Positions 1,747 through 8,871 of a DNA stretch of 8,955 nt are shown here, one piece after another. The notes under the pieces were generated by a model. That model did not search any database. It had not been told where the DNA came from and saw only the letters and a program-made list of their open reading frames with translations. The stretch is from a bacterium (lineage in GTDB: Bacteria; JAHJDO01): contig JAUWOV010000071.1 of assembly GCA_030611945.1 (NCBI GenBank), forward strand, positions 1 to 8,955, read 5' to 3'. The translations under genes were made by a program, and so were the position numbers. Numbering within the stretch: the stretch's first letter is position 1; every line of letters starts with the position of its first letter.

Positions 1747-1774
1747 ACCCACGATTTAAATCGTGGGTTCATAC
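1741..1774. repeat. Perfect 34-bp palindrome spanning the rho stop codon
   Basis: Each 17-nt arm is an exact reverse complement of the other, with centre TTT|AAA at 1755-1760 and core half AACCCACGATTT. It begins in the last Val codon of rho and contains the TGA stop (1744-1746). As RNA it would form a strong hairpin right behind rho. No T-run follows (ATACAAATGCAAA), so a standard intrinsic terminator is unlikely. A mobile or REP-like palindromic element is a reasonable alternative. No second copy is in the window. Confidence 0.85.
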
Positions 1775-1786
1775 AAATGCAAATAT

Positions 1787-3703
1787 ATGTATCGAAAATA
1801 TGTAGTATTTTTTGCCTTATTCCTCATATACTTTATTTCAGTTTTTATAAGGTTCCAGATACTTAACCACAGAGCAGATGCTCATGGTTCTCTCCCTCTT
1901 TCTAATGAATCTGCTCCTCATTTTATATACACCAAGATCATTGCTGAGACAGGCAGCCTGCCTGTTATAGACAATAAAATTCAATATCCTGAAAGCATTA
2001 ATATTCGTAAAAAGAATTTTGTTTTTATGGAATATTTCTACGGGTATTTATATAAATTTCTGAATGTAGGGGCAGGTTTGAAACCTGCCCTTACAGATTT
2101 TATAAGACATACCATTCCTTTGCTTTTTTCATTGAGTATAATCGCAGTTTTTGTACTGGCGTATAGTATTTCGCAAAATCGGATTGCATCTCTAATTTCC
2201 TCAGCATACTATGGCGTAATGCTTCCTTCTGTTTTGGGAACTACGGGGGAGATTTTCATGAAACAGACTTTTACTTTGCCGCTTATATTCCTTAATTTAA
2301 GTTTACTGTTTTTTATTTCAAATCAGTCCAGATACAAAACAAGGTTTTCGTTATCAATTCTGGCTGGATTATTGCTTTATGCTGCTGTTATATCATGGGA
2401 CCTTACGCAACTCTATTTGGTGATTTTATTTTGTTCAGCAGCGTTTTTAATCATATACGGTAAGAGCAGTTCAAATTATTTGGAATTTGTTTTCATAGGT
2501 GTTTTATTTATGGTGTTTGCAGGTTTTACCAATCTTAGGCTTAGAGAGATAGGATTTCTCTACAGTCATGTGATGCTTTTTGGATATTCTATAGTTGCAA
2601 TTGCTGTAGGGGCAGGTTTCAAACCTGCCCAAAACAGGGCGGAGGCAAGCGCCGCCCCTACGGTGAACAGATTAAGAACATTATTATTGCTTCTTGGCGT
2701 ATTTGTTTTCTTGGAATTTATTAGTTTGATTGTATTTAAAAATAACACCGGCACATACTCTCATATAACGTCTCTATTTCTCTATAAACTCAGGTTCTTA
2801 GGAGCAAAACCGGCTAATCCGGCTCTTTTACCTTTTGATGTAAACTTTATGTGGCTGCCTGCTGATATTACACCTTCGTTTATAGAGATAGTGACTTTTT
2901 TTAGTTCAACCCTTTTTATTGGAATCACAGCTTTTATTTTGTTTTTCAAAAGATGTCGCAAGAGAGAGTCAACCAAAGAGGATATTCTTTTTGCATGTTT
3001 GACGTTTCTATTTCTGATCTTCTATCTTCTTTTTGCAAGAATGAGAGTATTTCTAATCTTCTTTCTATGTTGTTCCATCTCTCTTATTTACAAAAACTTA
3101 GCAAAATCAAAGATGATTAATATTGTTACAGCTTTACTTCTTGTATTCCTGCCATTTGAATATATGAAGACAACGCATATTTGCAAAAACCTTGGATTTA
3201 TTAAACATCCTTCGTCTTTAATGGGTGTCTGCGAATGGCTTAAAGAGAACACTCCTGAAGGCAGTCCTGTTGCGACAAACTTTTCAGTAGCAGGATTTAT
3301 AAGGTTATACGCAGACAGACCTGTATTAATTCATGCAAAAGTAGAGTCAGATGATATAAGAAATAAAATAAAGGATTATATGTTCTCAATGTTTTCAAGA
3401 GATGAAACTGAGTTGTGGAGATTCTGTCGGAATAGGAATACAAATTATCTTGTTTATACAATGGGAACTTATATTACAAGAGGAGTGTATTCATGGAGGT
3501 ATATAACCGGCAATTTAAGATTTGATGAAGCAATAACTGCTTTTAAACTTGAATTTAAACCTGAAGAGCTGAGAAAATTTGAATTAAAATATAATAATAA
3601 GTATTACAAAATTTATAAGATATTTACGAGAGAGGAGATTGAAGAGGAAGACAAAATAAGAAAAGCTATTGAAAAATTTCTTGCAAGGACTTCTAAGTTG
3701 TGA
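1787..3703 (+). CDS. STT3/PglB-like GT-C family membrane glycosyltransferase (putative)
   Basis: This polytopic inner-membrane protein has 638 residues: about ten hydrophobic segments in the first two thirds, then a soluble C-terminal domain. Features recalling STT3/AglB-type GT-C enzymes are an N-terminal helix (5-22), a following external loop ending in TGSLPVID...QYPES (as in the STT3 G-x-LP...D...YPEG pattern), and a WLKENTPEGSPVATNF segment (W484 to P490 onward) opening the soluble part. STT3's WWDYG is replaced by TNFSVAGFI, so oligosaccharyltransferase activity is not assured; a lipid-linked-sugar transferase is equally possible. I start it at ATG 1787. An in-frame GTG at 1763 lies inside the palindrome and adds a non-hydrophobic stretch; neither start has a clear ribosome site. 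Two palindromic repeats are translated in frame (residues about 94-103 and 274-292), both in loops between membrane segments. It separates rho from nusA; a functional link is not evident. Confidence 0.6.
   Translation: MYRKYVVFFALFLIYFISVFIRFQILNHRADAHGSLPLSNESAPHFIYTKIIAETGSLPVIDNKIQYPESINIRKKNFVFMEYFYGYLYKFLNVGAGLKPALTDFIRHTIPLLFSLSIIAVFVLAYSISQNRIASLISSAYYGVMLPSVLGTTGEIFMKQTFTLPLIFLNLSLLFFISNQSRYKTRFSLSILAGLLLYAAVISWDLTQLYLVILFCSAAFLIIYGKSSSNYLEFVFIGVLFMVFAGFTNLRLREIGFLYSHVMLFGYSIVAIAVGAGFKPAQNRAEASAAPTVNRLRTLLLLLGVFVFLEFISLIVFKNNTGTYSHITSLFLYKLRFLGAKPANPALLPFDVNFMWLPADITPSFIEIVTFFSSTLFIGITAFILFFKRCRKRESTKEDILFACLTFLFLIFYLLFARMRVFLIFFLCCSISLIYKNLAKSKMINIVTALLLVFLPFEYMKTTHICKNLGFIKHPSSLMGVCEWLKENTPEGSPVATNFSVAGFIRLYADRPVLIHAKVESDDIRNKIKDYMFSMFSRDETELWRFCRNRNTNYLVYTMGTYITRGVYSWRYITGNLRFDEAITAFKLEFKPEELRKFELKYNNKYYKIYKIFTREEIEEEDKIRKAIEKFLARTSKL
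2065..2095. repeat. Palindromic repeat, copy 1, translated in frame
   Basis: Arms GGGCAGGTTT (2070-2079) and AAACCTGCCC (2081-2090) are exact inverted repeats around one base, extended by TGTA/TACA at the ends with one mismatched pair. It is read as VGAGLKPALT within the membrane glycosyltransferase. It shares its left half with the copy at 2605 and its outer TGTAGGGGCA with the copy at 8255. Confidence 0.9.
2605..2661. repeat. Composite palindromic repeat, copy 2, with two hairpins and terminal inverted repeats
   Basis: The element is bounded by GTAGGGGC (2606-2613) and its exact inverse GCCCCTAC (2654-2661). Inside are two hairpins: GGGCAGGTTT/AAACCTGCCC (2610-2619/2621-2630) and GGGCGG/CCGCCC (2637-2642/2652-2657). 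The left half differs from copy 1 by a single central base. It is translated in frame as about 19 residues, VGAGFKPAQN followed by RAEASAAPT, between two membrane segments. It is markedly more GC-rich than the surrounding gene, which points to insertion. Confidence 0.88.
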
Positions 3704-8254: not shown

Positions 8255-8282
8255 TGTAGGGGCACAATATTTTATGCCCTTA
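8255..8282. repeat. Palindromic repeat, copy 3 (diverged), downstream of nrnA
   Basis: TGTAGGGGCA at the left and TGCCCTTA at the right form an inverted repeat (TAGGGGCA 8257-8264, TGCCCTTA 8275-8282) with one mismatch and an AT-rich centre. The ends match copy 1 (TGTAGGGGCA...TGCCCTTA, including the same mismatch), while the middle differs. It starts 15 nt after the nrnA stop and could form a terminator-like hairpin, but no T-run follows. Confidence 0.7.
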
Positions 8283-8547: not shown

Positions 8548-8871
8548 ATGCACAGGTCAAAGATGTCTGTAGAAGAACGTAATAAACGATCACGCTTAAC
8601 ACAGATCATCCACTCACGTGAGTTTGTGCGGGGGACGCTAACAATGAGGTGGAAGGTGTGCGGCAGGCCTAACTGCAAATGCATTCAAGGGCAGAAACAT
8701 CCAGCCCTTTATCTAGTGCACAGTAAAGATGGCTGCAAGAAACAGCTTTACATCCCTAAGAGGTGGGAGGGAAAAGTTCGAGAGTGGGTAGAGCAATACA
8801 AAGACATACAAGAAAGGCTGGAAGAGATCTCATGTATTTGTTGGGATAAAATTTGGAAACGGGAAGAGTAA
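8548..8871 (+). CDS. Small Cys-rich DUF6788-like protein, probably transposon-associated
   Basis: This 107-residue basic protein has a metal-binding-like motif C38-x4-C43-x-C45-x5-H51 (CGRPNCKCIQGQKH), then a Tyr and short strands (ALYLVHSKDGCKKQLYIPK), and a C-terminal amphipathic helix (WEGKVREWVEQYKDIQERL). This pattern, CG(R/K)PNCxCxxGxxHxxxY followed by a helix, is the one I associate from memory with DUF6788 proteins, which often sit just before a transposase gene. Its biochemical function is unknown; DNA binding or a transposase accessory role is inference. It has its own promoter and strong ribosome site, unlike the operon before it, and the following frame looks like a transposase N-terminus. 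Both support a mobile-element origin. The end (CICWDKIW) carries two further Cys. Confidence 0.7.
   Translation: MHRSKMSVEERNKRSRLTQIIHSREFVRGTLTMRWKVCGRPNCKCIQGQKHPALYLVHSKDGCKKQLYIPKRWEGKVREWVEQYKDIQERLEEISCICWDKIWKREE

Follow-up and report, generated by a model that had tools for sequence, protein, structure and literature searches.

GTAG-tagged REPs, presumably moved by RAYT transposases, have very probably landed in two loops of a membrane-protein gene in the window (the whole stretch of 8,955 nucleotides analysed here) and are tolerated there as in-frame peptide inserts. In the mechanism proposed, REPs would be hairpins of single-stranded DNA that bear a GTAG foot at the 5' end and that RAYT (TnpA_REP) enzymes of the HUH/Y1 transposase kind would move in trans, a step that we infer for the window copies. 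Two loops encoded by a membrane-glycosyltransferase gene would have received a single REP and a head-to-head pair, respectively, and the inserts would have been kept because they extend the reading frame in phase and without a stop codon (VGAG(L/F)KPA and EASAAPT). The inserts would thus act as tolerated peptides and not as functional parts, and are probably neutral.

The host gene (1763–3703, + strand) lies between rho and nusA and is identified from its open reading frame, Pfam, profile and orthologue matches as a membrane glycosyltransferase of GT-C type (Dpy19/STT3 kind). The protein comprises 646 residues as counted from GTG 1763, while ATG 1787 is probably the true start, since the protein of congener G004 begins MYRKYVV. 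Residues 15–566 match the Pfam family Dpy19 (E 5e-19), and the homologue profile matches the C-mannosyltransferase dpy-19 (7zlg, E 1e-18) as well as STT3 chains. Orthologues with 79–85% identity occur in four congeners (G001–G004), and more distant genomes encode relatives at 23–30% identity. A perfect 34-base palindrome (GTATGAACCCACGATTT/AAATCGTGGGTTCATAC; 1741–1774) extends across the end of rho, and its core GAACCCACG...CGTGGGTTC has no further copy in the source genome.

The first-pass annotation had described two copies of one element in a single membrane-protein frame giving VGAG(L/F)KPA, with left parts identical at 25 of 26 bases, and both statements hold for ORF 1763–3703, where 2065–2090 and 2605–2630 match directly at 25 of 26 bases. 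The shared unit is a 25-nt hairpin, GTAGGGGCAGGTTT-N-AAACCTGCCC, present twice and in frame each time, both copies being read GTA GGG GCA, i.e. V-G-A-G-(L/F)-K-P-A. The site-1 REP (2065–2096, + strand) has its GTAG foot at 2066–2069, abutting a palindrome within the 20–40 nt range with the stem GGGCAGGTTT/AAACCTGCCC, encodes VGAGLKPAL and ends on the right in CCCTTACAG, almost a second foot. At site 2, the left half (2606–2630, + strand) has the same stem and encodes VGAGFKPA, while the right half (2637–2661, − strand) consists of GTAGGGGCGGCGCTTGCCTCCGCCC with a GCTTGCC loop, a different stem and loop type encoding EASAAPT on the + strand; this CTTG-loop type is among the common REP types of the source genome. 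The second insert is larger than had been described: besides the copy of the shared hairpin it holds a REP of a different type, the third in the gene, read on the − strand, and 2606–2661 (examined by folding) is a head-to-head heterodimer whose GTAG feet point outward. An intergenic REP of yet another stem type (GTAGGGGCACAATATTTTATGCCC; 8256–8279, + strand) lies about 270 bases upstream of a gene for a DUF6788 protein (8548–8871, Pfam E 2e-15) close to the contig end.

The window contains the string GTAGGGGC four times, whereas chance predicts 0.09 occurrences and none of 200 shuffles reaches four, and folding of the site-1 hairpin as ssDNA gives z scores of −7.3 (+ strand) and −5.5 (− strand) relative to shuffles. 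The longest perfect stem in the host gene (10 bp) is within chance, the maximum in 200 shuffles being 10; the case rests on the recurrence of the element and on REP-free orthologous sites. Rfam gives no match in the window.

Site 1 (residues 102–110) directly precedes a hydrophobic stretch (113–139), and site 2 (residues 282–300) lies between hydrophobic stretches ending at about 286 and starting at 301. In distant homologues and in the DPY-19 sequence of solved structure, both sites vary in length or contain gaps, in agreement with the earlier placement of the inserts in loops of an unbroken gene. Comparison with orthologues supports insertion relative to REP-free sites. The site-2 pair is absent in all four congeners, three of which (G002–G004) have a short MKLK-type stretch instead; in G001 (L037, gene 514–2448) this loop contains the stretch KAQRHKVTKAQ, which resembles another kind of repeat. 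At site 1, G002 and G004 have no REP, while in G001 and G003 the same slot holds a REP whose loop differs (CTTG); the sequence of G002 and G004 was also considered as a decayed REP, which is not demonstrable. Distant homologues lack the repeats at both sites, as the insertion reading had predicted. The proposed recent spread fits the site-2 dimer, which is unique to the source species, but not the site-1 slot, which is older because G001 and G003 carry the other-loop REP there. Relative to G002, site 1 is longer by about 2 codons net and site 2 by about 12, and both inserts also displaced some host codons. Homologues lacking exactly the inserted residues are thus found for nadB of the source genome, a clean case with exactly 24 extra bases that are the REP, in frame, but not for the host gene, where the insertions are not clean.

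The exact window stem has only two copies in the source genome, both in the host gene, and a wider foot-and-stem pattern was therefore searched. The literal probe proposed earlier has no other copy, whereas 49 distinct palindromes of many stem types belong to the wider GTAGGGGC...GCCC group in this 1.66 Mb genome (51 places listed, two of which list an element a second time), against none for a reversed-pattern control, and each of the four congeners has 10 to 40 such places. The group is dispersed and mostly intergenic, with about three quarters of its members outside and about one quarter inside ORFs of at least 120 residues; recognisable genes with in-frame REPs, besides the host gene, are those for NadB, a histidine kinase, an NtrC-type regulator and an RHS protein. 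Intragenic copies favour the VGA frame, a preference that is no more than suggestive, given the non-independence of the copies and the chance that some ORFs are spurious. The identical 25-mer GTAGGGGCAGGTTTNAAACCTGCCC was found in at least 120 stretches (L048–L167) of named genomes from many phyla, including Chloroflexi, Planctomycetes, Bacteroidales, Nitrospirae, cyanobacteria, proteobacteria, others and one archaeal bin, most of them MAGs whose individual taxon assignments may be wrong, and in other genomes it sometimes lies within RAYT genes.

The source genome encodes three Y1_Tnp (RAYT) genes or remnants, none with the exact window stem. L003 passes the NCBIfam model REP_Tyr_transpos (83.8; cut-off 80), and L220 is likewise above the cut-off for REP-associated tyrosine transposases. 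Two of the three source-genome RAYTs contain an in-frame REP pair, one on each side of the MPNHIHG motif, while the third (L206:1376-1745) is a remnant that has lost the inter-REP segment with its HUH motif and retains one double-foot REP. Four more congener RAYTs have the same layout, which is thus seen in L003:1360-2052, L210:1414-2097, L219, L220, L222 and L223. In the genus, RAYT genes of the CTTG and ACRGCG types have MPNHIHG flanked in frame by a GTAG...CTAC REP pair, and the RAYT genes of the genus carry REPs of several source-genome types. RAYTs with the GGTTTNAAACC stem were seen only in other phyla (e.g. L076 and L107); none was found in the source genome or the four congeners, which weighs against the GTAG-tagged REP/RAYT explanation, as do the displaced host codons and the fragmentation of all five genus assemblies (about 100 contigs or more each).

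Because the exact stem is restricted to the host gene, the copies might instead have arisen locally, with no transposase involved, if one of them seeded the other by inverted template switching or gene conversion. This route is possible though rather unlikely. It would suit two stem copies 540 bp apart in one gene and none elsewhere in the genome, and the two like copies match as an inverted pair at 26 of 27 bases, including the loop base and the CTG flank, equal to the direct match; moreover, congener G002 already has the CTGTAG flank of site 2, a hint that site 2 was the template for site 1. Yet the extra flank match amounts to about 3 nt only, and local copying would leave unexplained the first arrival of the element, the identical 25-mer in other phyla and the other-type REP that already occupies site 1 in G001 and G003.

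Changes of REP type at fixed slots are also found elsewhere in the genus. The histidine kinase gene (L202:1684-2829; orthologues L273–L277) has a different REP type in each of the source genome (G000), G001, G003 and G004 at the same codon, the REP of G003 being degenerate, and the left junctions match in three of these four genomes. The G002 kinase has no REP at the slot, and its sequence there is presumably the ordinary kinase form. A second REP slot lies farther along the kinase in G000 and G001. In the NtrC-type regulator (L202:352-1683; orthologues upstream of the kinase in L275–L277), one slot holds three REP types, in G000, in G003 and in G002/G004, with a left flank common to G000 and G003 and a right flank common to G003 and G004. 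At window site 1, the REP type of G000 differs from that of G001 and G003, while other slots keep one REP type across species (e.g. L012/L172, L168/L264 and L173/L171). The slots thus appear long-lived, while the occupant REP type changes between species. Exchange in place of one REP for another of a different stem type as species diverge is a tentative explanation, somewhat doubtful at present, in which a RAYT would perhaps swap hairpins with common feet (GTAGGGGC/GCCC); repeated insertion at a permissive spot is a possible alternative. As G002 and G004 group together in the species tree (95% support), the REP-free kinase of G002 implies that G004 gained its REP by a separate insertion or that G002 underwent recombination, and so both exchange and repeated insertion are possible.

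Selection of the inserts, as mRNA hairpins or as peptide linkers altering the enzyme, is improbable: the hairpins are strong and the kinase and regulator slots are kept across several species, but a given slot differs from species to species in peptide sequence, length and stem type, and orthologues without a REP show nothing else unusual. Homologue alignments refute the very improbable reading that the inserted residues belong to a functional motif conserved in the protein family, for although the peptide VGAG(L/F)KPA occurs twice in one protein, it is missing from site 2 in congeners and distant homologues and from site 1 in G002, G004 and distant homologues, and the same kind of DNA element also occurs between genes and in unrelated genes. 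The kinship with Rickettsia palindromic elements suggested by the first-pass annotation has practically nothing to commend it beyond palindromes lying in frame within protein genes, as the window units are 25 nt with a GTAG foot in a genome that has RAYT genes, whereas the R. conorii elements carry a CGTC terminal tag and RPE-4/RPE-6 are CGTC repeats not associated with transposase genes, according to PMC3733652 and work cited in it.

The window repeats are best classed as GTAG-tagged REPs inserted in frame in a gene, a phenomenon known before. Some GTAG-tagged REPs are intragenic and in frame according to Di Nocera, De Gregorio and Rocco (2013; PMC3733652), and the likeness to the elements treated there comprises the GTAG foot, a palindrome of 20–40 nt, head-to-head and hybrid dimers, in-frame genic copies, and a genome with several stem families and with RAYT genes, whereas the window stem set (GGGC...GCCC, AGGTTTNAAACCT and CTTG loops) and the lineage are not named in the text consulted. 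The same paper describes different REPs at about the same site of Xanthomonas recB, whereas several such sites occur here in one small genus. Quentin et al. (2018; PMC6006769) found REPs in frame inside TnpA_REP/RAYT genes of subclass 2.4; they also describe double-foot REPs, which a dimer could yield by losing its centre. The genus transposases also contain in-frame REPs and are likened to this subclass by these in-gene REPs, not by phylogenetic placement; three G-C pairs at the stem bottom, double-foot forms and scattered phyla are common to both, while the REP pair lies on both sides of HUH in the genus but mainly between HUH and Tyr in subclass 2.4 (PMC6006769). Site 2 resembles REPINs/BIMEs as an inverted REP pair able to form one larger hairpin, a likeness that lies in the pairing of the REPs and not in a conserved spacer family. 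Literature searches gave no match for the peptide VGAGFKPA and no relevant paper for the repeat DNA strings.

The host gene provides a clear case in which mobile palindromes become protein segments while the genes stay unbroken, with both REP-free and alternatively occupied orthologues known. The presence of the identical 25-mer in many phyla is an argument for wide travel of some REP/RAYT pairs, whereas at the subgenus level RAYTs are reported to be inherited mainly vertically (cited in PMC6006769). The turnover at fixed slots is the part that might be new to specialists; it is unusual for sister species to carry different REP types in the same slots. If exchange in place is true, proteins of this genus would carry interchangeable transposon-derived linkers at fixed positions, and comparison of sister species turns this into a testable question, namely whether RAYTs replace REPs in place.
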